Source: Algibacter amylolyticus (GTDB lineage Bacteria; Bacteroidota; Bacteroidia; Flavobacteriales; Flavobacteriaceae). From it: DNA of 64,000 nucleotides. The notes below the pieces were generated by a model. It saw only the letters and a list, made by a program, of their open reading frames with translations, was not told the DNA's origin and ran no database searches. The position numbers and the translations under genes are program-made. Where the stretch lies: contig NZ_JACHGE010000001.1 of NCBI RefSeq assembly GCF_014202225.1, positions 415,320 to 479,319 on the forward strand. The letters are read 5' to 3'. This document shows positions 6,032 through 25,862 of this stretch, piece after piece; the first letter of the stretch is position 1; the number at the start of each line of letters is the position of its first letter.

Positions 6032-6153
6032 ATTAAAACTAAAAGACTGAAAAGGTAATTACTTAATGTTAAAAAAAATACTTTAAATGTATTATTTTGG
6101 GTTATAAGCCATTAAATAAATACATTTACCAATATTAATTGATAATTACAATA

Positions 6154-7275
6154 ATGAATAAGAATAGGGGTTTAGCTGTAGTTGTGGTTTGCTTACTAGT
6201 TATGTTTTCGTGCAAAAACAAGCAAACTGAAAAGGAAGTTGACGTTGTTGATGCAGCTAAAAATATTACCAACAAAATAACTAACGAGGTAAAACAAAAG
6301 TTAATTTCTAATGCGCCTAATGGTATGGTTTGGATTCCTGGAGGTTCTTTTTTACAGGGTGCTGTAGATCAAGATGAAATGGCTATGAGTCATGAAAAAC
6401 CGCAACACGCCGTATCGGTAGATGGGTTTTTTATGGATATTACAGAAGTTACCAATGCCGAATTTACAAAATTTGTTAACGAAACAAATTATATAACAGT
6501 GGCAGAACGTGAGATTGATTGGGAAGAGATGAAAAAACAACTTCCTGAAGGCACACCAAAACCACATGATAGTATTTTACAACCCGGCTCGTTAATGTTT
6601 AAAAAAACAAAAACATCGGTTCCTAATTTATATGATTTCTCACAATGGTGGCGCTGGGTAATTGGTGTAAACTGGAGACACCCTAGTGGTCCAGATAGTA
6701 ATATTGAAGGTAAAGAAAACCACCCAGTAGTTCATATTAGTTTTGAAGATGCGCAAGCGTATTGTAAATGGGCAGGCAGACGCTTACCTACCGAGGCCGA
6801 ATGGGAATACGCCGCAAGAGGCAAAAAAACAAGTGCTGTTTATTTTTGGGGCGATGATAGATCTACGCTTTCAAAAATGGTAAATAGTTGGGAAGGCGAG
6901 TTTCCAGTAAATAATACCTTGCAAGATGGTTTTGAAAGAACTGCACCAGTAAAAACATATCCACCAAACGATTTTGGATTATATGATATGGCAGGAAATG
7001 TTTGGGAGTTTACCACCGATTGGTATAACATTAATTACTACCAAGAACTAAAATCTAGCAATAAAGATATTTTTAATCCGCAAGGTGCCGATAAGGCTTA
7101 TAACCCAAATATGCCGTACACACCAGAAAAGGTAATAAAAGGCGGTTCGTTTTTATGTAGCGATTCCTATTGTGCAAGCTACCGTGTATCTGCCAGAATG
7201 GGCACGAGTTTAGACTCGTCTGCAGAACATGTAGGGTTTAGAACGGTTGCAACTCTAGAGATGTTGGTTAAATAA
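6154..7275 (+). CDS. Formylglycine-generating enzyme (SUMF1-type) lipoprotein
   Basis: Predicted to oxidise an active-site cysteine of sulfatases to formylglycine. The 373-residue protein starts with a lipoprotein signal (lipobox MFSC, Cys20). The FGE-sulfatase fold begins at GMVWIPGGSF (about residue 50), followed by RRLPTEAEWEYAARG, GNVWEFTTDWY and GGSFLCSDSYCASYR. In that last segment Cys335 and Cys340, separated by four residues, align with the catalytic cysteine pair of true FGEs, which lookalikes such as GldJ/GldK generally lack. The ATG at 6154 is chosen over a TTG five codons upstream because it begins the signal peptide. It converges on the PUL; no sulfatase gene lies in this window, so the substrate must be encoded elsewhere. 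Attachment to a membrane facing the periplasm is inferred from the lipobox. Confidence 0.85.
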   Translation: MNKNRGLAVVVVCLLVMFSCKNKQTEKEVDVVDAAKNITNKITNEVKQKLISNAPNGMVWIPGGSFLQGAVDQDEMAMSHEKPQHAVSVDGFFMDITEVTNAEFTKFVNETNYITVAEREIDWEEMKKQLPEGTPKPHDSILQPGSLMFKKTKTSVPNLYDFSQWWRWVIGVNWRHPSGPDSNIEGKENHPVVHISFEDAQAYCKWAGRRLPTEAEWEYAARGKKTSAVYFWGDDRSTLSKMVNSWEGEFPVNNTLQDGFERTAPVKTYPPNDFGLYDMAGNVWEFTTDWYNINYYQELKSSNKDIFNPQGADKAYNPNMPYTPEKVIKGGSFLCSDSYCASYRVSARMGTSLDSSAEHVGFRTVATLEMLVK

Positions 7276-7312: not shown

Positions 7313-9628
7313 TTAATCTACGACTGTAAATGATGCTTTTAAGTTAGTTGTGGAGTCTCCACCTACCCAAACATTAAAATCGCCAGGTTCTACCTCCCAC
7401 TTTTTATTTATGGTGTAAAACTGCAATGTTTCTGCGTTTATGGTAAAATGGATGGTTTTGGTTTCGCCAGATTTAATCATTGTTTTTTCAAAACCTTTTA
7501 GTTCTTTAATAGGGCGAGTTATACTTCCAATTAAGTCTCTAATGTAAAGTTGAATAACCTCTTCGCCATCTCTATTTCCTGTATTGGTTACATCTACTGA
7601 TACTTTTATTTCTCCATTTGTTGGTATTTCTGTTTTATCAAGCATAAGGTTTTTATACTCAAAAGTTGTATAACTTAAACCATAGCCAAAAGGATACAAA
7701 GCTGTTTTGGGAGCATCTTGATAGCCGGAATATGTAACATGTTTTGGGCTTGATGGTCTTCCCGTCATTTTTTGGCTGTAGTATAAGGGTTCTTGACCAA
7801 CATTATGCGGAAAGGAAACCGGTAATTTCCCGGAAGGATTGTAATCTCCAAATATTACATCGGCAATGGCATTTCCAGATTCCGAGCCTAAAAACCAGCA
7901 TTCTAAAATGGAAGGTATGTGGTTTGCTGCCCAAGAAATATCCATTGGTCTTCCATTCATTAAAACAATAACCACGTTTTTATTCACTTTATAAACCGCT
8001 TTTAATAACTCATTTTGAAGTCCTAATAACCCAATATTAGTCTGACTTCTACCTTCACCAGTTTGATAGGCATTTTCACCAATAGCTAATAATACAACGT
8101 CTGCTTTTTTTGCAGCATCAACAGCGGCAGCAATTCCGGAGTTATCCGTATTGTTAAATTCTAGTGGATGTAAAAATTGGTTACTGCCTGGTTTTATGTT
8201 GGGGACTGTTAAATCAATCCCTTTTTCATAATGTATTTCAGTGTTGTTTCCTATAGCGTTTTTAATGCCTTCTAAAAGAGAAACAGCCGAATTGTTTTCT
8301 CCTTTTCCTCTCCAGTTTCCTAGGGGCGTATCCTTATCATTTGCTAAGGGGCCAATAACAGCAATGCTTTTTATGTTTTTTGATAAGGGTAATATATTGG
8401 TTTCATTTTTTAATAATACTATCGATTTTTTTGCGCCATCACGAGCAATTGCTAAATGGGCTTCCGTAAATACGTTATTTTTTTCGCGCTCTTCATTACA
8501 GTATTTATATGGATCTTTAAATAAGCCTAATTTGAATTTTACTCGTAGTACTCTTTTTACGGCATCATCTAACTGGGCTAAAGTTATTTTCTTTTCTTCT
8601 AGTAACCTTTCTAAATTGGCTTCATAGGCATACGATTCCATATCCATGTCGCTACCAGCATTCATTGCAATTTCAGAGGCATGTTTCTTGTCTTTGGCAT
8701 ATCCATGATTTCTCATTTCCCCAATAGAACCCCAATCTGATACTATAAATCCGTTCCAATTCCAGTCTCTTTTTAAAATATCGCGTTGTAGCACTTTGTG
8801 TCCGGTAGCAGGAATACCATCAATCTCGTTAAATGAGTTCATGAAAGTTGCAACACCAGCTTCGGCAGCTGCTTTAAAGGGTGGTAAAATGGTATTGTGT
8901 AATTCAAATTCGCCAACGTTAACGGTGTTATAGTCTCGCCCAGCTTCGGCAAAACCGTAACCTGCAAAATGCTTAGCACAGGCTGCTATGGTGTTTGTAT
9001 CAGTTAGGTTGGTTCCTTGAAATCCATTAATACGTGCTACTCCAACAACTTTGTTTAAGTAAACATCTTCTCCTGCACCTTCCATGATTCTTCCCCAGCG
9101 TGCATCTCTTGAAACATCAATCATAGGAGCAAAGGTCCAGTGTATACCAGATGCGGCTGTTTCTTTAGCTGCAATTGCTGCCGTGTTTTTTATAATATCT
9201 AAATCCCAACTAGCTGTTTCACCTAAGGGGATAGGGAATATAGTTTTGTATCCATGAATTACATCATACCCAAAAATTAATGGAATTTTAAGTCGTGAAT
9301 TATCCATAACAATTTTTTGAGTTTCACGAGTAGTAGCTACAGAAGCAATATTTAACATGGATCCAACTTCCCCTTTTTTTAGTTTTTCGAGTTTAAATTG
9401 GTCTGTTTTTGAAGATGATGGTCCAGTGGCATTCCATTTTCCGCTATACTGCACTAATTGACCAATTTTTTCATTTAAATGCATTAAGGCTAAAACCGAA
9501 TCTACTTTTTGTTCTATAACCTTATCGCTGTTTGAAGTTGTTAAAGTATCGTTTGTACTAGATTTTTTAAGACTAGTTAGAAATATAACAAGTAATATTA
9601 TGGGAATATATGATAAGATTTTTTTCAT
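7313..9628 (-). CDS. bglX: GH3 family beta-glucosidase
   Basis: Exo-acting glycoside hydrolase that removes terminal beta-linked glucose from oligosaccharides. At 771 residues it matches BglX-type enzymes: a signal sequence (1-20), the (beta/alpha)8 domain from about residue 35, the KHF substrate motif at 219-221, and the catalytic nucleophile Asp298 in FIVSDWG. The C-terminal alpha/beta domain follows, then a fibronectin-III-like domain from about 655. It is the last gene of the PUL, 57 bp after the EEP-family gene, and would finish degradation of products made by the GH16 enzyme. Specificity (beta-1,3, 1,4 or 1,6) cannot be read from the sequence alone. Confidence 0.93.
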   Translation of the reverse strand: MKKILSYIPIILLVIFLTSLKKSSTNDTLTTSNSDKVIEQKVDSVLALMHLNEKIGQLVQYSGKWNATGPSSSKTDQFKLEKLKKGEVGSMLNIASVATTRETQKIVMDNSRLKIPLIFGYDVIHGYKTIFPIPLGETASWDLDIIKNTAAIAAKETAASGIHWTFAPMIDVSRDARWGRIMEGAGEDVYLNKVVGVARINGFQGTNLTDTNTIAACAKHFAGYGFAEAGRDYNTVNVGEFELHNTILPPFKAAAEAGVATFMNSFNEIDGIPATGHKVLQRDILKRDWNWNGFIVSDWGSIGEMRNHGYAKDKKHASEIAMNAGSDMDMESYAYEANLERLLEEKKITLAQLDDAVKRVLRVKFKLGLFKDPYKYCNEEREKNNVFTEAHLAIARDGAKKSIVLLKNETNILPLSKNIKSIAVIGPLANDKDTPLGNWRGKGENNSAVSLLEGIKNAIGNNTEIHYEKGIDLTVPNIKPGSNQFLHPLEFNNTDNSGIAAAVDAAKKADVVLLAIGENAYQTGEGRSQTNIGLLGLQNELLKAVYKVNKNVVIVLMNGRPMDISWAANHIPSILECWFLGSESGNAIADVIFGDYNPSGKLPVSFPHNVGQEPLYYSQKMTGRPSSPKHVTYSGYQDAPKTALYPFGYGLSYTTFEYKNLMLDKTEIPTNGEIKVSVDVTNTGNRDGEEVIQLYIRDLIGSITRPIKELKGFEKTMIKSGETKTIHFTINAETLQFYTINKKWEVEPGDFNVWVGGDSTTNLKASFTVVD

Positions 9629-9685: not shown

Positions 9686-10534
9686 TTATTCTAAGCTTAG
9701 CTGAACATATACCGGGAAATGATCTGAAGGGTATTTTAAATTAACGTTACTAGATAAAACACCATATCTTTTAACCCGAATTCCAGAATTTTTTGAAAGC
9801 ATTATATAATCAATTCTTCGTGTTACAGGTTCTTCAAATTTAAACCCATTAAATGTTCCATTAGAACCAAAAGTTAGTTTAGCTATATTTTTGGAATCAT
9901 TCATAGTTTGTTTTAAATCTTTAATTAGATCACTATTAGGTTCTACATTAAAATCACCCATAATTATAACAGGATAATTTTTAGAATTAAGTTCTTCTAT
10001 TTTATTAAGAATTAATTGCATACCCTGTTTTTGAGCTTCTGCTCCTTTATGATCTAAATGTGTATTAAATACCCATATTTTTTGGTTGTTACTGAGTGTG
10101 GTAAACAGGCCGTAAGTGCAAATTCTAGGGTAGGCGGCATCCCAACCTTTAGACACTTTATTTGGTGTTTCAGATAACCAAAAGGTATTTTGCTGCTCTA
10201 CTTTAATTTTTTTTGGGTTGTAGAAAATAGCTGAAAACTCTCCTTTTTCTCCACCATCGCGACCTATTCCGAAGGCTTTATAATCTATAAGAGCAGATTT
10301 TAAATCTGCCATTTGGTTAGGGCGCGCTTCTTGAACCCCTAAAATATCTGGGCTATAAAATAATATTTGCGAACTTAAAAATTGGCTTCTGTTTTTCCAT
10401 GCATTTTCACCATCTGAGGCGACATCTAACCGTATGTTATAGGTCATTACACTAAGGTTTTGACTTTTAATTGCTGTTTTACAACCAGAAAAGGCTAAGG
10501 CAATTACACACAATACTTTTAAATAATTTTTCAT
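9686..10534 (-). CDS. Endonuclease/exonuclease/phosphatase-family lipoprotein
   Basis: This 282-residue protein carries the full EEP motif set: MTYNIRLD, VQEARPNQM, NTHLDHKG, MGDFNVEP, RIDYI and SDHFPV, which supply the metal and phosphate ligands. The start ATG at 10534 (MKNYLKVL) gives a lipoprotein signal with Cys17 in FSGC; an upstream in-frame GTG or TTG extension would overlap the GH16 gene and is rejected. It begins 4 bp after the GDPD-GH16 stop, so the two are translated from one mRNA. EEP proteins hydrolyse phosphodiesters or phosphomonoesters (nucleases, sphingomyelinases, inositol-phosphate phosphatases). Being exported and inside a PUL, it is more likely to act on a phosphorylated glycan or glycolipid than on DNA; this is inference. 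Confidence 0.85.
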   Translation of the reverse strand: MKNYLKVLCVIALAFSGCKTAIKSQNLSVMTYNIRLDVASDGENAWKNRSQFLSSQILFYSPDILGVQEARPNQMADLKSALIDYKAFGIGRDGGEKGEFSAIFYNPKKIKVEQQNTFWLSETPNKVSKGWDAAYPRICTYGLFTTLSNNQKIWVFNTHLDHKGAEAQKQGMQLILNKIEELNSKNYPVIIMGDFNVEPNSDLIKDLKQTMNDSKNIAKLTFGSNGTFNGFKFEEPVTRRIDYIMLSKNSGIRVKRYGVLSSNVNLKYPSDHFPVYVQLSLE

Positions 10535-10538
10535 TTTA

Positions 10539-12131
10539 CTATATTTTTTGTTGAAAAACCCTAACGTAGTCAATTAGCATTTGTTGGGGGAAAACACTAT
10601 CGTCAATACCTTTTCTTCCTCCTAACATACCGCCTACTGAAACATTTAGAATTAAATAAAACTCTTGATCAAAAGGCCATTCTGCAGTTGTTTTGCGTTC
10701 GTTTTCAATATGATTATACACAACACCATCCAATATAAAATCCATTTTTTCGGGAGTCCATTCTATTGCAAATACATGGAATGTGTCGTAAGGTTTATTT
10801 ATAAAAATTTTTTTACCACGTTGGGTGCCTCTTAAATGATTGAAAGCCTTGGTGTGTATCGTTCCAAATATAGAATCTGGGTTAAAACCAACATGTTCCA
10901 TAATGTCTATTTCTCCGCATTCTGGCCAGCCCACTTCTTTCCTGTTATTCCCTAACATCCATATAGCGGGCCATAAGCCAACACCTTTTGGTAGTTTAGC
11001 TTTAACTTCTATTCTGCCGTATTTCCATGAGGCTAAGTCTGTGGTGTTTAATCGTGCTGAGGTGTATTGTGCAGTATCAATTTCTGTTATATATTTTATC
11101 CAGCTTTTCTTTTTAATTTCGGGGTTGTTAAAATCTTTATTTGCTATTTTTTCTTTATGTGCTTCAATAATTAAATGCCCTTTATCAACTCTAACATTTT
11201 TTAAGCTGTCTGTATAGTATTGTTTTTCTCTATTGCTTAAAAAACCATAATCATATGCCCATTTTGTGCTATCTGGTTTGCCATTATAATTAAACTCGTC
11301 GCTCCAAACTAATTTGTAACCTTTAGTGGTTGGGCTTTGCTTTATTTTTTTAAAAGTAAGTTCTGGTTCGTCTGTGGTGATATAATCAAAATTGTTAGCT
11401 AAAAGCCAATCAATATCATCAACTTTATTGGCTACCCATGCATTTAATTCTAAATTGTTTTCTTTAGCACTAGATATCCATTCTGGATGTATTTTGTATT
11501 TGTAAACTAGGTAGTCTAATCCTGAAATTCCATCTTCTTTTAATTGGTTAGGCGATTTTGAGCCGTCTAAATACTGGGTTTTAGCATTAGGGTCTAGTTC
11601 CTTTATTTTTTTTAATATACTATAACTAAAGCTTATGTAGGATAAAATGTGGCTTTCGGCCTTAAGTTCTTTTACTAGTTTTATAGTCTGTTCTGCTATA
11701 AGCAGATTTTTTTCTTTGGTTTTTGCTGGTTTTAGTTCGCAGACCAAACCGGTGGAGTCGTTATTTTTTAGACCAGCAGCTATATATTCTTTTAGCGTTG
11801 GTAAAGTTTCTCCGTTTGAAAGTTTAAATTTTGAAAGTTCGGCATATGTAGATTCTTCAATAACTAAAGAATTGTAATCTTTATCGTGAGTTACAACAAG
11901 TACACTGTCTTCTGTTATCCGAACATCAAACTCTGAACCTGTACAGCCTAATTTTATGGCTTGTTTTAATGATGCAATGGAGTTTTGTGGTAAATGGTTT
12001 GTTTTCCACGCACCCCGGTGGGCAATTACAACATTATTGGCAAACGCTATATTCTTTTTTGAGCTCGACTTGCAAGCTAGAAGACTTATAAAAATTAATG
12101 TTGAAATACATATGTTTTTGCAAATGCTCAT
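10539..12131 (-). CDS. GDPD-GH16 fusion lipoprotein (glycerophosphodiesterase plus beta-glucanase)
   Basis: Two catalytic domains in one 530-residue lipoprotein (lipobox LLAC, Cys20). Residues about 33-262 are a glycerophosphodiester phosphodiesterase barrel with His38-Arg39, Glu67-x-Asp69, His82-Asp83 and Glu132, the expected catalytic and metal residues; the usual PENT motif is PQNS. Residues about 272-528 are a GH16 beta-glucanase with WPAIWMLG and the catalytic EIDIME motif (nucleophile Glu407, Asp409, acid/base Glu412), typical of laminarinase-like members. The gene lies 101 bp after susD, behind an intercistronic hairpin, and 4 bp before the EEP gene. Exposure on the cell surface is inferred. 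The pairing suggests removal of glycerophosphate from a glucan coupled to backbone cleavage. The GDPD domain could instead act on lipids. Confidence 0.9.
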   Translation of the reverse strand: MSICKNICISTLIFISLLACKSSSKKNIAFANNVVIAHRGAWKTNHLPQNSIASLKQAIKLGCTGSEFDVRITEDSVLVVTHDKDYNSLVIEESTYAELSKFKLSNGETLPTLKEYIAAGLKNNDSTGLVCELKPAKTKEKNLLIAEQTIKLVKELKAESHILSYISFSYSILKKIKELDPNAKTQYLDGSKSPNQLKEDGISGLDYLVYKYKIHPEWISSAKENNLELNAWVANKVDDIDWLLANNFDYITTDEPELTFKKIKQSPTTKGYKLVWSDEFNYNGKPDSTKWAYDYGFLSNREKQYYTDSLKNVRVDKGHLIIEAHKEKIANKDFNNPEIKKKSWIKYITEIDTAQYTSARLNTTDLASWKYGRIEVKAKLPKGVGLWPAIWMLGNNRKEVGWPECGEIDIMEHVGFNPDSIFGTIHTKAFNHLRGTQRGKKIFINKPYDTFHVFAIEWTPEKMDFILDGVVYNHIENERKTTAEWPFDQEFYLILNVSVGGMLGGRKGIDDSVFPQQMLIDYVRVFQQKI

Positions 12132-12232: not shown

Positions 12233-13843
12233 TTAATAACCATCATTTTGTGGAAAATCTGGACCTAATAAATCTAAATCTATTTGAGCAATTGGCCAAT
12301 TAATATAGTGTGGTTGCCAATTTGTTCTTGGGTCTTTAGTGCCTAAATTAGCAGGGAAATATTCTCCGTCGCCTGCGTAATTTGTTATTTGAAAATCTAT
12401 AACATCTTGTCCCATACGTTTTAGGGTAAACCAACGCTGACCTTCAAAAGCCAATTCTCTTGCTCTTTCATCTAAAATAGTTTGCTGGTTTACAGATGTA
12501 ACTGCTTTGGCACCAGCACGCGTTCTTACTGCGTTAATGTAAGGTAAAGGGTCTCCTGTAGATCTCATAATAGCTTCGGCTGCAATTAAGTACGTTTCTG
12601 CTAACCTATAAACTGTAATATTACTTCTGTTTAGATAAGAGTCTGGATTATCGTCTTCCTGGGCAAATTTTATGCATGATGGATGCATTCTTTGGTAATA
12701 CCTTGCGTAATCACTGCTAGGGTTATCTAAGTCTGTTATAGGCGCATAGTCATCTAGTTCTTCGCCAATTCTGTCTCCAGAAGTATAATAATATTTAAGT
12801 CTGAAGTAAGTATCATCATCTCTAGTGTCATTAGGGTCTTCAGCTAATAGATTTAATAAATAAAGGTTAGGTAATATACGAGAGAACCCTCTACCACCTT
12901 GCTCTATGTTTGCTTCAATACCAGAAATTTGAAAATATTGTGTTACATAATTTGCATTGATCATAGTGGTGTTTCCACCGCCTAATAAATCGTCTTCAGC
13001 TTGAATTACAAATAGCGATTCTGAGTTGTTTCTATCGCCATCAAAAACAGCTGCTGTGCTGGAAACTAAGCTATGAGGCGAATCTGGACCCTCTATAACA
13101 TCTAAGGCTTGGTTTTTAGCTTCAGTCCAATTACCTTGCCACATCGCTACTTTTGCTTTTACATGCTTAGCAGTGCCTTTAGTAACACGTCCAAAGGTAT
13201 TTGTCCACTCTAAGTTTTTAACTGCAAAATCTAGATCGCTATTAATAAGTGTAAAAATTTCTTCTTCAGAAGATTTGTCGTTCACAACATCAAATGCATT
13301 TTCAACGGTAACGGTTTCAGTAGTTACATAAATGTTATTAAACATTCTGTATAAATAAAAATAAGAGTGTGCTCTAAAAAATTTGGCTTCTGCTAGAACT
13401 TGGTTCTTAACATCTTCATCAATTCCTTTAGCAACTTCAGCCGCATTTATAATGGCAGTAGCTTTATTAGTCATGTTATAAAAGTGTTTCCAAAATAATG
13501 AAGAAACAAAGTTCGCGCCTTGGTCTACTGGTGAAACACCTCTTTCGTATCTGCCCATTAATCCGGTATAACCTGTTCTGCTAAAAGCTAAATCGCTTCT
13601 AGAAGACATAAGTACAGCACCCATAAAATCTTCTGTACTTTTTTGATAACGATCTCTTTCAAATTTATATAGACTTACAACTCCAGATTTTAATCCTTCT
13701 TCTGTAGTATAAATATAATCTGCATCAATTGATGTGCTTGGGTTTTCTTCTAAGAAATCTTCGCAGGAAACTGCAAAAAATAATAATATAAGAAGCAATC
13801 CGGATCCTTTTAATTTTTTATAAAAACTTTCTGTATTCATCAT
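12233..13843 (-). CDS. SusD/RagB family outer-membrane glycan-binding lipoprotein
   Basis: Surface lipoprotein that closes over the SusC transporter and binds the oligosaccharide. The 536-residue protein begins with a lipoprotein signal (AVSC, Cys27 from the first ATG, Cys26 from the ATG one codon later), then CEDFLEENPS, the classic SusD start. It has the helical repeat region, including LAEAKFFRAHSYFYLYRMFN near residues 150-170, and the C-terminal TYLIAAEAIMRS and RARELAFEGQRWFTLKRMG segments. It follows susC by 8 bp on the same strand. The ligand is not deducible by reading; the neighbouring GH16 and GH3 suggest a beta-glucan. Confidence 0.95.
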   Translation of the reverse strand: MMNTESFYKKLKGSGLLLILLFFAVSCEDFLEENPSTSIDADYIYTTEEGLKSGVVSLYKFERDRYQKSTEDFMGAVLMSSRSDLAFSRTGYTGLMGRYERGVSPVDQGANFVSSLFWKHFYNMTNKATAIINAAEVAKGIDEDVKNQVLAEAKFFRAHSYFYLYRMFNNIYVTTETVTVENAFDVVNDKSSEEEIFTLINSDLDFAVKNLEWTNTFGRVTKGTAKHVKAKVAMWQGNWTEAKNQALDVIEGPDSPHSLVSSTAAVFDGDRNNSESLFVIQAEDDLLGGGNTTMINANYVTQYFQISGIEANIEQGGRGFSRILPNLYLLNLLAEDPNDTRDDDTYFRLKYYYTSGDRIGEELDDYAPITDLDNPSSDYARYYQRMHPSCIKFAQEDDNPDSYLNRSNITVYRLAETYLIAAEAIMRSTGDPLPYINAVRTRAGAKAVTSVNQQTILDERARELAFEGQRWFTLKRMGQDVIDFQITNYAGDGEYFPANLGTKDPRTNWQPHYINWPIAQIDLDLLGPDFPQNDGY

Positions 13844-13851
13844 TTCTTTTT

Positions 13852-16800
13852 TTAAAATTTAACTCTTACACCAAAGGTGAAACTTGTTGCATCTGGATAT
13901 CCCGTATCTGCGCTTGAAAATGTAGATCTTATATTTACTTCTGGACTATAGCCTATGTAATCTGTATTTGTAAATAAGTTGGTTCCTGTTACATAGAACC
14001 TTATCATTTCTAAATCTAACTTGTCTGTTACTATTTCTGGTAACGTATACCCTAAACTTAGGGTTCTTAATCTTACGTAGGATGCATCTTTAACTGCTAA
14101 AGAATTTAAGTATAAGGGGGTAGAATCGAAATTTGCTCTTGGGTATGAATTAGATGGATTCTCTGGTGTGTAATAATCTACTTTAACACCATTAAGTTTG
14201 CCAGATATTGTTCCTCCGTTATTGAAATCGGATAAAAACGGGTTTACTTTTGTTGCGCCTTCTACAACATAAAAATCGACTAATAAATCGAAACCTTTAT
14301 ATTCGAAAGTTGTTGAGAATGAGCCAAACCAATCTGGGTTTTGATCGATAAATACACGATCTTCTGGAGTAATTTTTCCGTCAGGGCCAGATATTATATT
14401 ACCTTCATCATCAACACCGTTAACATCTTTAATTTTAATGTCTCCAGGGCTTAAGTTGTCTTGGGTAAGTGATGACTCTGGGTTGGCTTGAGCTGCGTTT
14501 TCAAAATCGTCGCCTTCTTGCCAAATACCATCAAAAGCATATTGATAAATAACACCTACTGGCTGTCCTACGTAGTAGTTATATGTGTCATCTCGGGTTA
14601 TTTCATCGCCATTACCATCTGTATATAGCTTAATAAGTTTATTTTTATTATTAGACCAGTTTGTTGAAACAGACCATTTAAAATCTTCTTTATTAATTAT
14701 ATTAGCTGTAAGACCTAACTCAATACCTGTGTTTTGTAATTCGCCAGCATTAAAGTATGTAAAGGTGTAACCCGTTGTAGAAGGTACTGCTCTTTTTAAT
14801 AATAGGTTTTTTGTTCTTGCATCATACCAGTTAATATTACCAGTTAACACTCTTTGGAAGAGAGAAAAGTCTAAACCAATATTTGCTGTTGTAATTCTTT
14901 CAAATTCTAAATCTGGATTTGGTAAAATTGTTGAAGGTGAAAAACCGGATGCCGATTCGCTATCAAAAATATAAGGTTCTGGATCTGCTGTAAAAAGCGA
15001 TGTATAAGGAATTCCTAAATCGTTTACTAAAGAACCGTAACTTAATCTTAGTTTTAATTCTTGTATAGCATCTACATTTTCTAAAAAGCTTTCATTATGC
15101 ATTTTCCAAGCAAAAGAACCTGCAGGGTTGTAGCTCCATTTTTTACCTACCCCGTTTAACGATGTGCCATCTGCTCTCATGGTACCTGTAAATAAATATT
15201 TATCCATTAAGGTATAACGTGCTCTGGCCATATAGGATAGATAGTTAATTTTATCGGAATCGCGTTCTACACTAAGGTTGCCAATAGCACTTGCAATACC
15301 ATTATATCCGTTGTCTTCGTTTGTAAATCCTTGACCTTCGGTAAAAGTTCTTCTTACATCATCTTCTTGTGCAGATTGTACCAGGGTAACATTAAACTTA
15401 TTGTTTTCATTTATCGCTTTATCATAAGTCAAAATGTTTTCTATTAAGAATGATTCTCTTAATCTGCTATCTATACGTGCAATTCCAGAAACATCATCAC
15501 CAGCAGAACTTAAAGACGATTGGTACTGTCCTCTTTCGGAAGTTCGTCTAGTCATGTTTGCTTTTAATTGATAGGTTAAGTTGTCTGTGATTTTCCATAT
15601 TGGAGTAATGTTCATAACAAAGTCATTTCCTGTTTCTTCGTTATTTTGCTCACGCAAATTCCATAATGGATTTACTGCAGATAACTCTTCACCACTTGGA
15701 AAACGTGCTATACTACCATCGGGGTTATAGGCACTACCTAAAGGAGAGGTTGTTATAACGTTTACGTTTGCAGCTCTGTCTGTATTATCATTTAAAAGGT
15801 TTAAATCGAAATTAACAGAGAATTTGTCGCTTATCTTTTGATCTACATTTAAACGTAGTGTTTTTCGAGTGTAACTTGAGGATGGAATCAATCCATCTTC
15901 TTTAAAGTAATTAATACTACCAAAAACCTTAGTTAATTCTGTGCCGCCGCTAACACTTATAGCTTGACTATTAACGAAGCCGTTTCGCATTAATTCATCT
16001 TCCCAATCTACAAAATTACCATTGGCTATGTTTTCTAATTCTATATCAGAAAAAATATCTTCATCATTTGGGTAAGAGTCATCAGCTCTGTTTGTTCTTA
16101 CAGCTTCACGTCTTAATTGTGTAAACTCTTCTCCGCTGTATACATCAAAATTACGCTCTATGGTTTTAGTTGTTACAAACCCATGGTAACTAACACTTAC
16201 TTTGCCTGCTTTACCACGTTTAGTAGTTATTAAAACCACACCGTTAGCACCTCTTGATCCATAAATGGCTTGCGCCGATGCATCTTTTAAGAATTCTATA
16301 GATTCAATATCGTCTGAGTCTATATCCTCTATGCCATCATCTCTAATAATGCCATCAACTACATAAATAGCATTTACATTACCTTCAATAGAACCTTGTC
16401 CTCTAAAAATAATATCAGATGTTCCACCTGGTCTTAATGTACCACCGCCTACATTTACTTGAAGACCGGCAATTCTACCTCTCAACATTTCATTAACATC
16501 GGATGTTGGTGATAGTGTTGCTTTAGATAAATCGGTTATAGCCACAGCATTTACAATATCGCTTTTCTTTTGTGTACCGTAGCCTACCACTACAACTTCG
16601 TCTAGAATGTTTTCATCTTGTTCTAACAGAATAGTTATTTGGTTGGAAGTAGTTTGGGTTTCTTTTGTTTTGTACCCTACATAAGAAATAACCAATATAG
16701 TTGCGTTGTTGTTTACTGTTAATGAAAATTTCCCGTCAAAATCGGTGGATACTCCATTACTAGTTCCTTTTACAAGTACTGTTGCTCCTGGTAAAGGCAT

Positions 16801-16929
16801 GTTATCTGATGCCGACAGCACAGTTCCTGTAATTGTTTGTTCTGATTGTGCTATTGCTCCTAATGAAACAGATAAACACAATATAAAGAACAGTACTTTA
16901 ATTTTTTGATAACAAATTTTAAATTTCAT
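13852..16929 (-). CDS. SusC/RagA family TonB-linked outer-membrane transporter
   Basis: Energised outer-membrane channel that imports the SusD-bound oligosaccharide. Of 1025 residues, 1-28 are a signal peptide, about 32-108 a carboxypeptidase-D-like domain (TVLVKGTSNGVSTDFDGKFS), then the TonB box region EVVVVGYGTQKKSDI, the plug (about 118-240, with DIIFRGQGSIEGNVNAIYVV and IYGSRGANGVVLITTKRGK), and the beta-barrel ending in a terminal aromatic FGVRVKF. It starts the PUL transcript with a -7 element 25 bp upstream, and susD follows after 8 bp. Length and order are normal for the family. Confidence 0.96.
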   Translation of the reverse strand: MKFKICYQKIKVLFFILCLSVSLGAIAQSEQTITGTVLSASDNMPLPGATVLVKGTSNGVSTDFDGKFSLTVNNNATILVISYVGYKTKETQTTSNQITILLEQDENILDEVVVVGYGTQKKSDIVNAVAITDLSKATLSPTSDVNEMLRGRIAGLQVNVGGGTLRPGGTSDIIFRGQGSIEGNVNAIYVVDGIIRDDGIEDIDSDDIESIEFLKDASAQAIYGSRGANGVVLITTKRGKAGKVSVSYHGFVTTKTIERNFDVYSGEEFTQLRREAVRTNRADDSYPNDEDIFSDIELENIANGNFVDWEDELMRNGFVNSQAISVSGGTELTKVFGSINYFKEDGLIPSSSYTRKTLRLNVDQKISDKFSVNFDLNLLNDNTDRAANVNVITTSPLGSAYNPDGSIARFPSGEELSAVNPLWNLREQNNEETGNDFVMNITPIWKITDNLTYQLKANMTRRTSERGQYQSSLSSAGDDVSGIARIDSRLRESFLIENILTYDKAINENNKFNVTLVQSAQEDDVRRTFTEGQGFTNEDNGYNGIASAIGNLSVERDSDKINYLSYMARARYTLMDKYLFTGTMRADGTSLNGVGKKWSYNPAGSFAWKMHNESFLENVDAIQELKLRLSYGSLVNDLGIPYTSLFTADPEPYIFDSESASGFSPSTILPNPDLEFERITTANIGLDFSLFQRVLTGNINWYDARTKNLLLKRAVPSTTGYTFTYFNAGELQNTGIELGLTANIINKEDFKWSVSTNWSNNKNKLIKLYTDGNGDEITRDDTYNYYVGQPVGVIYQYAFDGIWQEGDDFENAAQANPESSLTQDNLSPGDIKIKDVNGVDDEGNIISGPDGKITPEDRVFIDQNPDWFGSFSTTFEYKGFDLLVDFYVVEGATKVNPFLSDFNNGGTISGKLNGVKVDYYTPENPSNSYPRANFDSTPLYLNSLAVKDASYVRLRTLSLGYTLPEIVTDKLDLEMIRFYVTGTNLFTNTDYIGYSPEVNIRSTFSSADTGYPDATSFTFGVRVKF

Positions 16930-17225: not shown

Positions 17226-20015
17226 CTAGAACTTTAAGATATAGTTAACAAGGCCGCTGTCGTGCTCTAAATCAAGTTTTTTTCTTAATCGGTAACGCTT
17301 TGTTTCAACACTTTTAACCGAAATATTTAGTAAAGGGGCCATTTCTTTTGAAGACAAATTAAGACGTAGGTAGGCGCAAAAACGTAAATCGTTTGGTGTT
17401 AAGTCTGGATGAACTTGTTTGATTTTTTCTAGAAAGTCTTTATCTGCATTGTTAAATGCCTGTTCAAAGAAAGACCAGTCTTTGGTGTCGTTTAAATTAC
17501 TTTCTACAAGTTTTATGGCTTCAGCATTATTGGCATCCTTACTCTTTTTTAATTCTTTTTTAATTTTATTTAATACCCTATTCTTTTTAATAATACTCAT
17601 AGTTGATATTGCCAATTCTCTATTTTTATTCTCAATATCTTGGTTTAGTTTTTCATTTTTAATTTGCATAACAGTTTGCTTGTTTTCTAACTCCTTGTTT
17701 TTAAGCATTTTGTTATAGTAGTTTTTATAAATACTATTTGTTAATAAAGCTATGGTTATTAATGCCAAAAGGTATAAGAACCATGCTAAATTAGATATAT
17801 ACCAAGGTTTGTTTATAGTGAAGTTATAAGACGCTATATTGTTTGATACCTTGCTTCCTACTTTAGCTTTTACTTCAAAATGATAATCTCCATATGGAAG
17901 GTTTTCGAAACTGCTTTCTGCTTTATTGGACCATTCACTCCACTTATCAATATTTCCATTCAATTTAAATTGATACTTAACATCTAAAAATTTTTCATAT
18001 TCTGGTACCGAGTAGTTGAATGTTAAGATTCCATATTTATAATTGAAATCACCAGAATCTTTAAGCAAGATTTTTGTTGTAGTATCTTGATTTATATCGG
18101 TATTAGAAATTGAATTTAAATGGACTGAATAATCTTCATTATAAGTAATGTTATCTAGGTTAAGTTTTAAATATCCATTTGCTGTTCCTAAAATATAAAG
18201 ATCTTGTGCTATAGTCTCAATATTTTCAAAACCTAAAGCGCCTCTTCTAAAGTAAGAGGGTATAGGAATATTAGCTATTTTAACTTTATTGGTAAGATTG
18301 TCATTATCAATAAAATTAATACTCTCTTTAGAAAACACCCATAGTTTTTTGTTTAAATCGACCACCATTTTTCCGGAAATGTACTGATTTCCCATGGCGA
18401 CCTTACTTAGTGTTGAGTCTTTTTTAAAAGCTCTTAAACTATCGTAATATTTAAAAACGCCATTGTTGGACATATATAAAATATCACCTCTATAAGTTGT
18501 TAAGCTAGAGTTTTTTCCTTTTGGTAATTTTTTTTCTTTAACAACCTTAACCACTTTAGTTAAACTGTCGTTTAATTCGAGTTCAAATACGCCTTTATAT
18601 TCATGATTTACCCAAATTTGGTTAGAGTCGTTAATTTCAAAATATCTAGAAGAGTTATTAAAGCCCTTTATTTTGTTTCTTAATTTCCAGTTATTATCAA
18701 CTTTTTCAAGGACATAAATGCCATCATAATTTCCTTGTAGTAATACATTTTCTTGGTTTGGGACGTTTTTGAAATTCCATACTCCAAAGTGGTCGCTTAT
18801 TTGTTTGGCCTTATCTTTATTTACCAAAAAGGTTCCTAAATGATGCCCACATAGCAAATCTTCATCATTATAATTATATAAACTCCAAACCTGACCAGCA
18901 GTACCTTCTATAAATTTAAAACTATCATTTACAGATCCTAGTTTACGGTAAAACAATCCTTGATTTGTACCCAAATACAAATGGTCATTAAATACTTTTG
19001 TGGCATAAACGGTTCCTAAAACACCATCATAATCTATAAAAGTTCTAATTGGCGATGTTACATTTATACAGTCTAAACCATTGTCTAAACCTGCCCAGAC
19101 ATTATTGTTGCTATCTTCAAATAGAGATAAAACAGTATTGTTGCTAAGTCCTTTTTTTTGATTTATAATATAATCGATTTGTCCATCTTTAGTTAGATGC
19201 AATATTCCTTTGGAAATAGTACCAAGCACAAAACTTTTATCGCTTAATTGAATTGCGCTAAACACACTTACGTTTTTCAATGTATCTATAGCTCGTATAT
19301 GCCAAGGAGTTAATTTATTGGCTTCAATGATATAAAAACCAGACTTTCTAGTTAAAAGTAGTATGTTTTTATTGCTCTCAAAAATATTAATAACTCTGTC
19401 GTTTAACGCAATAGGGTCATTTACCAGTAGTTTTGGTTTGCCATCTTTAACTGTATATAACCCTTCGTTATCCACATGGTAATAAATGTGATTATCGATT
19501 TTGAAAATTTTATAAATTAAATTTTTAGAGGTTATTATTTTAAACTCTTTAGTAATTGTATTGTAAAAATAGATGTGTTTTCTAGCTTGAAAAACTACCC
19601 ATTCATTATATTCAATAATATCCCAAATTTGTTCGTCAATCAATAAATTGCTATCCAGATTTGATGCCAACGATTGGTATTCTAATACTCCAAAATCATT
19701 TTTAAGCCAAAAGCCAAAATCTGAATAACAACCAGTATAAATCTTATCCTTAATAGCATTAACCGATCTAACTATAGTGTTGTTAGGGGATGGGTACACA
19801 CTCCAACTGTGGCCGTTATATTCAAGAAGGCCTTTGTTATTGGCTGCGTAAATAAAATTGTCCGATCCTTGAGAAACCATCCAATTTTGGCTGTCTGCAT
19901 TATAGTCTATTGGCGAAAATTTTTGAATAGGAGGTAATTCCTGTGCAATTAACGTATTAGTGTAGACTAGTAGAAAAATGAAAAAAGTAAAGGCTATTTT
20001 TAAATTATTTTTCAT
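17226..20015 (-). CDS. PUL regulator: beta-propeller, Y_Y_Y domain, membrane helix and LuxR-type HTH
   Basis: A 929-residue single-protein sensor-regulator. Residues 1-25 are a signal peptide; about 30-650 carry propeller-type repeats (DSNNNVWAGLDNGLDCIN, NKKLWVFSKESINFID); about 660-745 are the triple-tyrosine Ig-like domain (YQFKLNGNIDKWSEWS, LPYGDYHFEVKAK). A transmembrane helix spans about 755-775, a basic/acidic coiled coil about 780-850, and a C-terminal LuxR-family HTH (LNISVKSVETKRYRLRKKL) ends the protein. No histidine kinase or receiver domain is present, so it is one-component in layout. The ATG at 20015 is used because it starts the signal peptide; the frame opens slightly earlier at a GTG. 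Lying just upstream of susC on the same strand, it probably senses the glycan in the periplasm and controls the PUL. Confidence 0.9.
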   Translation of the reverse strand: MKNNLKIAFTFFIFLLVYTNTLIAQELPPIQKFSPIDYNADSQNWMVSQGSDNFIYAANNKGLLEYNGHSWSVYPSPNNTIVRSVNAIKDKIYTGCYSDFGFWLKNDFGVLEYQSLASNLDSNLLIDEQIWDIIEYNEWVVFQARKHIYFYNTITKEFKIITSKNLIYKIFKIDNHIYYHVDNEGLYTVKDGKPKLLVNDPIALNDRVINIFESNKNILLLTRKSGFYIIEANKLTPWHIRAIDTLKNVSVFSAIQLSDKSFVLGTISKGILHLTKDGQIDYIINQKKGLSNNTVLSLFEDSNNNVWAGLDNGLDCINVTSPIRTFIDYDGVLGTVYATKVFNDHLYLGTNQGLFYRKLGSVNDSFKFIEGTAGQVWSLYNYNDEDLLCGHHLGTFLVNKDKAKQISDHFGVWNFKNVPNQENVLLQGNYDGIYVLEKVDNNWKLRNKIKGFNNSSRYFEINDSNQIWVNHEYKGVFELELNDSLTKVVKVVKEKKLPKGKNSSLTTYRGDILYMSNNGVFKYYDSLRAFKKDSTLSKVAMGNQYISGKMVVDLNKKLWVFSKESINFIDNDNLTNKVKIANIPIPSYFRRGALGFENIETIAQDLYILGTANGYLKLNLDNITYNEDYSVHLNSISNTDINQDTTTKILLKDSGDFNYKYGILTFNYSVPEYEKFLDVKYQFKLNGNIDKWSEWSNKAESSFENLPYGDYHFEVKAKVGSKVSNNIASYNFTINKPWYISNLAWFLYLLALITIALLTNSIYKNYYNKMLKNKELENKQTVMQIKNEKLNQDIENKNRELAISTMSIIKKNRVLNKIKKELKKSKDANNAEAIKLVESNLNDTKDWSFFEQAFNNADKDFLEKIKQVHPDLTPNDLRFCAYLRLNLSSKEMAPLLNISVKSVETKRYRLRKKLDLEHDSGLVNYILKF

Positions 20016-20175
20016 ATAAATGGTACTCAAAAACACATATTAGATTTTTTCCTTTAATACAATTTAAGAAGTTTTAAATTGAAACTTGTATAAACCTTAT
20101 AAATTATGAATCTTAAAGATGTTTTTCTTTTTTAAAATTTTGTTTAATTTATAACATAAACAGCTATAAAGTAAT

Positions 20176-23132: not shown

Positions 23133-25862
23133 TTACTCAATAATTATTTTTTTAGTCGCTTGCTTTATACCGTCACTAATATTTAAAATATACATACCAG
23201 ATTGTACGTTGTTTAATTTTAAAGTTTCTTCAAAGTTACTGCTATGGGTATATGTGTTACTATAAATAACGCGTCCTCTTAAATCTATAAGGTTAACACT
23301 AATATTATTCGATGCTGCACTATCAAGTTTAATGGTAAACTCACCTTTGTTTGGGTTTGGGTAAACCACCAAGTCATTAAACTCAAAGCTGGTAGTATGT
23401 AATGGAAGTAATTCTAACGAGCATACCTCGATAGACCAGCTGTTTAAAGTACCAATATCATCCACTCCAGAGTCGCCAAGACCTAATAACCAATTACCAT
23501 TGGCAGCTTCACCATTCCAACCACTAAGCGATGCCGATGGCGATTTCATGGTTAAACCATCGCCAGTTGTGGTACAGTTAAATTCGGTGCCATTATCATC
23601 AAAAGTAACTACTAAATTACTGTCTTCACCTTGGCAAGGCGTATACGATTCTAAAAGGGTTATTAAATTACCTTCTGGACTTTGTAATCCTAATAAAATA
23701 TCACCAGGCCAATTATGCGATATATTTACTGTAAGTGTAACCGCGGATACAGTTCCTGTAGCTGGTACGTTTATAAACGAAACTTCGGTAAAATCACTTT
23801 CATTATCTGATATGGTTAAAGGTAAATTAGGATCTGTAGAGTTGTATGTCGTACATGTTTCTACAATGGTGTAACCAATAGTGAAATCTTCGGTGTTTAT
23901 TGCGAAAAATATATTGCCTTCCGCTTCAACCATAACTCTACAAAAGGCCGATAATTCACTCGGCACAACTATGTCGTGCGATCCATCATTAGGTACATTA
24001 CTCGCTAAAACAGTATCATATTTTAAGCCACCATCGGTAGATAGTAATATGTTTACATTAGCGGTATTAACGCCGTTTCCTGTTGTACCAGCTACATCCC
24101 AAGTTATAGTTTCGGTTGTGCCTTCAGACCAGCTAATACCAGTTGTATTTTGCGAAGTCACTAAAAACGGGCCAGCATTTGCAGTAGTGGTAACGGTCAT
24201 GCCATCGGTTGCCGTTTGTCCTCCATCTTCATTATTGTCTCTTACCGTTAACTGAAAATTTATAGCCCTATCAGCAGAGGCTAATTTTTCCCAAGTTGTA
24301 GACCCAGCACTAGTTTTTAAGTCTTTTAAATTAGGTATATATCGCGTTGTATTAGTTGTTCCTTCAAAAGAACGCACTAAAGGACCAGTGGTATTTGTTT
24401 CTAGAGGTAAACCTGCAGCTCCTAAATCGTATTGTTCCCAGGTGTAGGTGTGCGATGCTGTACCATCGGCATCTGTTGATGCTCCTGTTAGTTTATAAGG
24501 CGTAGAAATAGGAATGGTATAATTTGCGCCGGCATTAGCCGTTGGTGCGCTGTTTGTTAAAGTGGTTTCGGTACCACAGGTACTAGCACCAGTGGTTATA
24601 TTATCCCAAATCATTTGAATACTTTTTTGGTGAAAGTAAACATCACTTTGAGATTGTATATTTTGTGGCGAACATAAACCTGCGTAAGCCATTATCGTAC
24701 TACCACTTCCAGGTTCGTAAGCATTGCTTGACTCTCTGTTGCCTGCACAATTGCTAGTACTACCATTAAATGTGTGTGGCGCTCCAAATTGGTGTCCCAT
24801 TTCATGAGCTACAAAATCTATATCGTAGGCATCTCCAACCGGTAGTGACGATCCTGTAATACCCATCGCTTTTCTAGCGGTAACACATGGTGAGTTTAAA
24901 GAGGCTAAACCACCACCACCAGTGCTAAATGTATGACCTATATCGTAATCTGTAGAAAGAATAGCGTTATCTATTTCAACTTGACTTTCATCTATTAAAA
25001 GATCTGCATCGTCATTGGTAAAGTTATCCGAGTTAATAAAAATAAGATCTGTATTATCTACCATAACCATTTTTAAGGCTAAATCTTTTTGAAAAAGACC
25101 GTTAACACGAGTCATGGTAGTAACCATGGCTTGTAAAACAGCATTTTTTTTAGCGGCTTCAGAATCGGCAATTGTTAATCCAGCGGCTTTCCAATGGTAT
25201 TCAGAGTATTCAACCGTAGAAGCTAGCACTAATCTAAAGGTTCTTAATTTACTATCGTTTGCATTAAGTAATTTTGCACTGTTGCTTGTTTCTTTTTCAA
25301 GCGTAAAATCATCCGGTACGTAACACTCAAACCCTTCTTTTAAAGCTGGTAAATCTCCTTTACTATAAGCTATATAAGTGTTGTTTTTAGTGTACGGATC
25401 CAGAAACTGAGTGCCATTACCTGTAGATAGCGTCATGGCGTGCAGACCTTGCGGTGTTATACTAAAGTTTATTGTCGATGCTGGGTTTTTAATATTTTTA
25501 CCCACGTAAGTTCTAATTTCTGGATGTTTTTCTTGAAACGCTGGCTCTAAAATGGAAGACTCCTTAATACTGTATTTATCAAATCCACCTTCACTATTTG
25601 GGAATTCAATTATTTGATTTTCAGTAATTTTGCCCGAGTTGTTTTTTGAAACCAGACTTAACTTAGTTTTAAGTTGGTTTATATCTAAAGTATAAATAAC
25701 CGATTTTCTAGGTTCGGTTTTTCTATTTATTTTTTTTCCTGCTAAAGCTTCTTTCGCCGAAACCTGAGACCAAATAGTACTTGTGTTTTGTGCAAAAACA
25801 GACGTCGATAAAAAGATAAAAAGTAGTAGGTAAAAACAATTTTTAAGGTAAAAATGTTTCAT
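23133..25862 (-). CDS. Secreted reprolysin-like (M12B) zinc metalloprotease with P domain and T9SS sorting domain
   Basis: Extracellular protease of 909 residues. It has a signal peptide (1-25, ending VFAQ), a propeptide, and a metzincin catalytic domain with zinc site HEMGHQFGAPH (about residue 350) and the downstream Met-turn GSTIMAYAGLC. A beta-sandwich region follows, then a proprotein-convertase-type P domain (about 660-820; NISHNWPGDILLGLQSPEG, NGEAANGNWLLGLGDSG). A type A T9SS C-terminal domain closes the protein (about 835-909; VYPNPNKGEFTIKL, SGMYILNISDG, KKIIIE). This order is common in Bacteroidota proteases. It is transcribed alone and ends at the shared terminator. Its substrate is unknown. 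Confidence 0.93.
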   Translation of the reverse strand: MKHFYLKNCFYLLLFIFLSTSVFAQNTSTIWSQVSAKEALAGKKINRKTEPRKSVIYTLDINQLKTKLSLVSKNNSGKITENQIIEFPNSEGGFDKYSIKESSILEPAFQEKHPEIRTYVGKNIKNPASTINFSITPQGLHAMTLSTGNGTQFLDPYTKNNTYIAYSKGDLPALKEGFECYVPDDFTLEKETSNSAKLLNANDSKLRTFRLVLASTVEYSEYHWKAAGLTIADSEAAKKNAVLQAMVTTMTRVNGLFQKDLALKMVMVDNTDLIFINSDNFTNDDADLLIDESQVEIDNAILSTDYDIGHTFSTGGGGLASLNSPCVTARKAMGITGSSLPVGDAYDIDFVAHEMGHQFGAPHTFNGSTSNCAGNRESSNAYEPGSGSTIMAYAGLCSPQNIQSQSDVYFHQKSIQMIWDNITTGASTCGTETTLTNSAPTANAGANYTIPISTPYKLTGASTDADGTASHTYTWEQYDLGAAGLPLETNTTGPLVRSFEGTTNTTRYIPNLKDLKTSAGSTTWEKLASADRAINFQLTVRDNNEDGGQTATDGMTVTTTANAGPFLVTSQNTTGISWSEGTTETITWDVAGTTGNGVNTANVNILLSTDGGLKYDTVLASNVPNDGSHDIVVPSELSAFCRVMVEAEGNIFFAINTEDFTIGYTIVETCTTYNSTDPNLPLTISDNESDFTEVSFINVPATGTVSAVTLTVNISHNWPGDILLGLQSPEGNLITLLESYTPCQGEDSNLVVTFDDNGTEFNCTTTGDGLTMKSPSASLSGWNGEAANGNWLLGLGDSGVDDIGTLNSWSIEVCSLELLPLHTTSFEFNDLVVYPNPNKGEFTIKLDSAASNNISVNLIDLRGRVIYSNTYTHSSNFEETLKLNNVQSGMYILNISDGIKQATKKIIIE

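Follow-up and report, generated by a model that had tools for sequence, protein, structure and literature searches.

A PUL with a fused GDPD-GH16 protein in Algibacter amylolyticus and its possible link to glycerol-phosphate-decorated beta-1,3-glucans

The window, meaning the whole 64,000-nucleotide stretch of Algibacter amylolyticus DNA analyzed here, contains a set of minus-strand genes centered on a protein in which a GDPD domain is joined to a GH16 domain:

17226..20036, minus strand, sensor-regulator with Reg_prop and Y_Y_Y domains
13852..16929, minus strand, SusC-like TonB-dependent transporter (TIGR04056 over cut-off)
12233..13843, minus strand, SusD-like lipoprotein (Pfam)
10539..12131, minus strand, lipoprotein-like GDPD-GH16 fusion of 530 aa with an ATG start (GDPD at residues 38 to 257, GH16 at about 270 to 528)
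9686..10534, minus strand, EEP-family lipoprotein-like protein of 282 aa, predicted phosphomonoesterase (PF03372, 4c1r-like)
7313..9628, minus strand, BglX-like GH3 beta-glucosidase (PRK15098 over cut-off)

Along the minus strand the order is regulator, SusC, SusD, GDPD-GH16, EEP, and GH3, with the EEP start codon (ATG, at 10534) 4 bases past the stop codon of the fusion. Adjacent SusC and SusD genes, catabolic enzymes, and a regulator, in an order repeated in relatives, make this a Bacteroidota PUL, the setting in which an earlier note on this DNA had placed the fusion. The regulator has a weak LuxR/GerE-type helix-turn-helix match at its C terminus (residues 894 to 931, below cut-off), and a domain scan found no histidine kinase domain in it, so it was not classed as an HTCS. 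Plasmid records matching the query numbered 307, none of which covered 80% of it. Adjoining the PUL is a convergent gene (6139..7275, plus strand) for a lipoprotein-like protein with an FGE-sulfatase domain, whose best NCBIfam match, GldK, is far under cut-off and which is kept at this place in Algibacter pectinivorans (L099; loci are designated L and genomes G). The window also encodes a large secreted protein (23133..25862, minus strand) with the zinc-protease motif HEMGHQFGAPH and, by eye, a C-terminal tail resembling a secretion sorting domain.

Both domains of the fusion scored over the Pfam gathering cut-offs within one 530-aa open reading frame: PF03009 (GDPD) at residues 38 to 257 (E 3.7e-23, 83.3 bits versus a cut-off of 23.6) and PF00722 (GH16) at residues 349 to 508 (E 1.9e-22, 80 bits versus a cut-off of 22). 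This bears out the fusion described in the earlier note, as well as its claim that both catalytic sites are intact; H38, E67, D69, H82, and E132 of the GDPD domain and E407, D409, and E412 of the GH16 ExDxxE motif are all present, and these eight residues are invariant across 22 aligned fusion proteins. We take H38 and H82 to be the catalytic histidine pair and E67, D69, and E132 to be metal binding, as in the GDPD family. In an alignment of the fusion-type GDPD family, 57 of 57 rows retain all five, and a dead GDPD domain was rejected on this ground; six further rows stand outside these 57, including a decayed remnant (L163) and the second GDPD of L110, which is without E132. The protein is a GDPD family member, with glycerophosphodiester hydrolase activity predicted from homology, and also a GH16 beta-1,3(4)-glucanase family member, with predicted activity on laminarin. 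An AlphaFold model (mean pLDDT 90.2, pTM 0.86) has a GH16 fold that matches laminarinases in Foldseek. By eye, an LLAC lipobox with Cys20 fits the lipoprotein assignment made previously. The surface location given in the earlier note is putative: the residues that begin at the lipid cysteine read CKSSSKK, with no acidic residues close by, and surface-export rules concern acidic residues closely behind a lipoprotein cysteine.

The GDPD-GH16 architecture itself is not new, as it is already known in three dimensions. PDB entries 7ww4 and 7wwc (480 and 479 residues) match across both domains at E about 1e-144 and rank first in Foldseek, with a TM-score of 0.96 when normalized to target length and of 0.87 when normalized to query length, an rmsd of 1.9 Å, and 48% identity. 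They share both domains, identically ordered, over the full length. Their PDB titles read "multidomain beta-1,3(4)-glucanase," with 7wwc "with Laminaritriose," and 7ww4 was released in 2023. According to an excerpt of PMC12448869, 7WWC is a Pedobacter terrae glucanase crystallized with laminarin and has no accompanying publication, although a neighboring sentence of the excerpt assigns the same code to a xylanase; unlike the case made here for the window, the excerpt describes neither a role for the GDPD nor a PUL context. The best-ranked standalone solved GDPD, BDI_0402 of Parabacteroides distasonis (PDB 3no3), matches at 40% identity and is without a GH16 domain. Among the literature matches listed (titles and abstract openings, mostly open-access), none dealt with a glucan PUL containing a GDPD, with what the GDPD domain does, with this locus, or with a GDPD acting on phosphoglycerylated glucan, and PMC5613140, PMC11345257, and PMC6298971 contain neither "glycerophosph" nor "phosphodiesterase" in their main texts.

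Among the matches listed for 80 genomes, including that of the window, one other full-length relative was found (G002, 94%), and G010 carries the two domains as adjacent genes. A collection of named genomes yielded 305 confirmed relatives, and the best 80 of these comprised 21 single-ORF fusions and 3 adjacent pairs (L116, L121, and L128). Fusion in 21 of 80 named relatives, along with a crystal structure in which both domains are joined, rules out a chance reading frame or a sequencing or assembly artifact. Across 395 genomes of the phylum (own included), 43 had a fusion-subfamily GDPD at E 1e-25 or better: 9 fused to GH16, 1 as a split pair, and 10 no more than 15 kb from a GH144 gene, against about 0.36 expected by chance from the GH144 matches listed and an assumed genome size of 4.5 Mb. 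Seventeen of the 19 best-scoring GDPDs were fused, split-paired with GH16, or near GH144, versus only 3 fused and none beside GH144 among the lower-ranked 24. Distant members of the subfamily therefore look ordinary, and from among them a lineage appears to have entered glucan loci. In Ginsengibacter, a GH16 protein (L163:9965-11017) bears the decayed GDPD remnant at its N terminus, and in Fulvivirga (L118:9974-12432) another GDPD of this family, standing alone, directly follows the fusion.

Another feature of these loci is the EEP gene. The closest named solved relative of the window EEP is the mannosyl-6-phosphatase 4c1r (E 1.5e-47, query residues 27 to 263), so that by homology it would be a 4c1r-like sugar-phosphate phosphatase with a predicted phosphomonoesterase role. 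In 112 mapped loci (window included; L088, from the same genome as L099, left out), EEP was found in 25, of which 22 have a fusion-type GDPD, 2 a different GDPD type (L122 and L126), and 1 no GDPD (L151). The earlier note had proposed to ask whether loci of other proteins with GDPD followed by GH16 share EEP and GH3; such proteins were found, and 13 of the 34 loci with both GH16 and GDPD are without EEP in the mapped DNA.

Genes for glycerol use provided a second association. GlpF, accompanied by GlpK either within the locus or just past its edge, was found in 12 loci, all among the 22 with EEP and fusion-type GDPD. In nine they lie upstream of the regulator (L089, L090, L098, L105, L106, L108, L109, L111, and L112) and in three, with GlpD, downstream of GH3 (L101, L102, and L121). 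Those of L102 were named by Pfam and NCBIfam (GlpK by TIGR01311 and MIP by TIGR00861, both over cut-off), and the others by phmmer similarity to L102. As a control, 53 GH16 loci that have no GDPD of any type were examined, and none carries GlpK or GlpF; 35 of these control loci span at least 15 kb, and 26 have SusC or SusD. The difference gives a Fisher p of 2.5e-8 for 12/22 EEP-GDPD loci versus 0/53 and of 1.0e-5 for 11/34 GH16-GDPD loci versus 0/53, figures that are rough because shared ancestry overstates independence and locus lengths are unequal. Similarly, in 16 relatives with glpK over cut-off, none of the 34 GH16 matches among those listed lies within 20 kb of glpK. Three genomes (G180, G184, and G300) have the order glpD-glpK-glpF-regulator-SusC, and each has just one GlpK match that reaches E 1e-100, encoded beside the PUL. 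In mapped DNA, GlpF is absent from 10 of the 22 EEP-GDPD loci and from 23 of the 34 GH16-GDPD loci.

Several relatives depart from the window gene content. A GDPD without EEP occurs in L097, L103, and L123; L098 (G300) has GDPD, EEP, and glp genes with neither GH16 nor GH3; and L151 has EEP and GH16 with no GDPD in mapped DNA. Homologues lacking the GDPD in otherwise identical PULs, with no change in substrate, were named in the earlier note as a case that would speak against its reading. An orthologous regulator is present in 27 loci, and a fusion-type GDPD in 22 of these but not in the other 5; 2 of these 5 carry a different GDPD (L123 and L126) and 3 carry none in the mapped DNA (L124, L125, and L151), with L124 and L125 keeping the regulator and GH16 and having neither GDPD nor EEP. 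This result neither cleanly provides such a case nor excludes it, because these loci differ in other genes too.

Gene exchange also seems to mark some of these loci. A different, PENT-type GDPD lies behind GH3 in L122:6776-7549, L123:14063-14836, and L126:14794-15603, together with a second GH16 gene, an apparent non-orthologous replacement in GH16 loci without a fused GDPD. In six others (L090, L103, L110, L113, L124, and L125), a SusC/SusD pair of a different type accompanies a retained GDPD-GH16 or GH16 gene, with the regulator also retained in five of the six, which suggests a swap of transporter inside the PUL. Finally, a sulfatase whose CSPSR motif is intact lies between EEP and GH3 in L101:11221-12699, L102:12448-13926, L104:12414-13892, and L121:12747-14225; genes similar to it are near glpD in G180 and G300 (L185 and L186). 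This enzyme is unexplained by the decorated-glucan model developed below.

A further group comprised 21 loci with a fusion-family GDPD but no GH16. Ten of these (L067 to L075 and L077) share a homologue of one GH144-type protein, the L074 copy of which has PF10091 and, as its best PDB match, the endo-beta-1,2-glucanase 5gzk/5gzh (606 bits). These loci resemble the window PUL in having SusC/SusD, a GDPD of the same subfamily, and, in 9 of 10, GH3; they differ in that GH144 replaces GH16, the GDPD is a separate gene, and EEP and glp genes are absent from mapped DNA. In a 62-row GDPD tree, with a backbone largely open and bootstrap not settled, GH144-associated GDPDs fall in two places, one of them sister to the fused L092 (95/92), while the PENT-type GDPDs of L110, L122, L123, L126, and L127 stand apart (98/96). 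The occurrence of a single GDPD lineage together with two endo-glucanase families is most easily explained if the GDPD targets a decoration and not the backbone. The backbone of periplasmic glucans is beta-1,2-linked, and GH16 is a beta-1,3(4) family, making ordinary beta-1,2 periplasmic glucans a poor fit for a GH16 of the laminarinase type. As to decorations, an excerpt of PMC10514313 states that periplasmic glucans carry phosphoglycerol, succinate, and phosphoethanolamine.

The earlier note had suggested that the substrate is a glucan decorated with glycerol phosphate and not plain laminarin, citing periplasmic glucans as its example. The first part is strengthened by GlpF and GlpK beside 12 relatives, by the kinship of EEP with a sugar-phosphate phosphatase, by sister GDPDs beside GH144, and by the different GDPD kept in two of the five orthologous loci without the fusion-type one. 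The example was set aside as the window protein's own substrate on account of its beta-1,2 linkage. Overall, the interpretation is partly supported: comparison of sequences strengthens the decoration and corrects the backbone, while the chemistry is a prediction. Of the glucans found that would suit both domains, the best documented is glycerophosphorylated cyclic beta-1,3-glucan. In minimal medium, such glycerophosphorylated cyclic beta-(1,3)-glucans are among the three main extracellular carbohydrates of Pseudomonas aeruginosa PA14 (excerpt of PMC2997053), and a GT2-GH17 synthase family of pseudomonads has been proposed to make this cyclic glucan (excerpt of PMC10237404). On balance we favor, with moderate confidence, a PUL for glycerol-phosphate-decorated beta-1,3-glucan, most plausibly the (cyclic) glycerophosphorylated beta-glucans released by other bacteria.

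From the genes, domains, catalytic residues, conserved order, and neighbors, we infer the reactions, the substrate, and its source as follows. SusC/SusD would import the glucan, the GDPD domain would split the glycerol-phosphate diester, and the GH16 domain would cut the undecorated beta-1,3 backbone, with GH3 completing the conversion to glucose. The fusion would thereby hold decoration removal and backbone cleavage on one tether. In the usual GDPD chemistry, the phosphate stays on the glycerol. EEP would remove the leftover phosphomonoester, which would be that of glycerol-3-phosphate or, should the GDPD cleave the diester at its glycerol side, one on glucose. A phosphomonoesterase acting after a phosphodiesterase would yield glycerol, glucose, and phosphate. 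In many relatives, the freed glycerol could be imported and burned via the adjoining GlpF, GlpK, and GlpD.

The window organism itself may draw glucose and phosphate from the substrate without using the glycerol, because its genome has no GlpK over cut-off (the best FGGY match is 28% identical), no match to GlpT, and no close GlpF (one MIP channel match, 27% identity). Uptake of glycerol-3-phosphate by GlpT was rejected for this organism, as the search for GlpT gave no match. Its GlpD stands apart, with no GlpK or GlpF in the surrounding 19.9 kb, and in the close relative G002, too, GlpD is present with no GlpK at E 1e-100. These absences count against the favored reading, as do the relatives described above that are without EEP, GlpF, GDPD, or GH16 and the GH144 loci without EEP and GlpF.

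The leading alternative is a PUL for laminarin or another algal beta-glucan, with GDPD and EEP serving only to recover phosphate or glycerol from the glycerophosphodiesters that lysed algal lipids provide, and with the fusion as a convenience of co-expression. GDPDs generally act on deacylated phospholipids, and marine Flavobacteriia are described in excerpts of the literature as laminarin eaters. Compared with the laminarin PULs of marine Flavobacteriia, with which it has SusC/SusD, GH16, and GH3 in common, the window PUL has an added GDPD and EEP, and its relatives have glp genes. The related structure 7wwc, a laminaritriose complex, and the loci L092 and L120, which carry the fusion in a setting resembling laminarin PULs (GH30 and further GH16), count both for this alternative and against a decorated glucan. 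In G039 and G013, a distant GDPD is encoded about 22 and 29 kb, respectively, from glpK, so some GDPD-glpK proximity may reflect lipid turnover. Against this explanation, the window organism has a second locus (G000:C1:208000-227900, L087) with a GH16-GH3-GH16-SusC-regulator arrangement and a laminarin-type surface protein, probably its ordinary laminarin PUL, and neither GDPD nor EEP was found there within 19.9 kb. Also against it are the 10 sister GDPDs that sit with beta-1,2-glucanases, as well as at least three changes in the GH16 fusion state on starred branches of the GDPD tree. Given this balance, we regard lipid scavenging as unlikely, if still the most serious competitor.

A different source of substrate would be fungal or other eukaryotic wall beta-glucan bound to a phosphodiester-bearing moiety, such as a GPI remnant or phosphomannan, with the GDPD cutting the bridge. 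The enzyme 4c1r, to which EEP is close, is presumably part of yeast-mannan degradation, and GH30 genes are added in L092, L093, and L120. However, mannosidases numbered 0 of 10 among the neighbor proteins scanned with Pfam, a minority of all neighbors, and GlpK, GlpF, and GlpD neighbors indicate a glycerol product, making a eukaryotic wall origin improbable. A laminarinase in which the GDPD serves for binding or structure, without catalysis, is highly improbable: the domains have a single relative arrangement in 7ww4 and the AlphaFold model (TM-score 0.96) and 25 of 57 rows have Q or K in place of the usual PENT-motif glutamate, but the conservation of all five catalytic or metal-binding residues throughout those rows and the occurrence of GDPD as a separate gene in L097, L098, L116, L121, and L128 argue for an enzyme.

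Extending the decorated-glucan reading beyond the window, a class of Bacteroidota PULs may serve for feeding on phosphoglycerol-decorated beta-glucans from other bacteria, a proposal we put forward tentatively and at slightly less than even confidence. In it, one GDPD lineage, working with GH16 (beta-1,3, cyclic-glucan type) or GH144 (beta-1,2, periplasmic-glucan type), would strip glycerol phosphate, EEP would complete many of the beta-1,3 versions, and linked glpDKF would burn the glycerol in some genomes. Since one GDPD lineage occurs with either GH16 or GH144, the question could be tested with two recombinant proteins. Pseudomonas cyclic glucans are reportedly linked to biofilm antibiotic resistance, going by the title of Sadovskaya et al. 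from 2010, and if the proposal is true, an enzyme that strips and cuts these glucans would be a useful tool. GH16 loci of marine Flavobacteriia are usually read as laminarin loci; part of them would then represent scavenging of, or predation on, bacteria, and bacterial biofilm and periplasmic glucans would become a recognized diet of marine flavobacteria.
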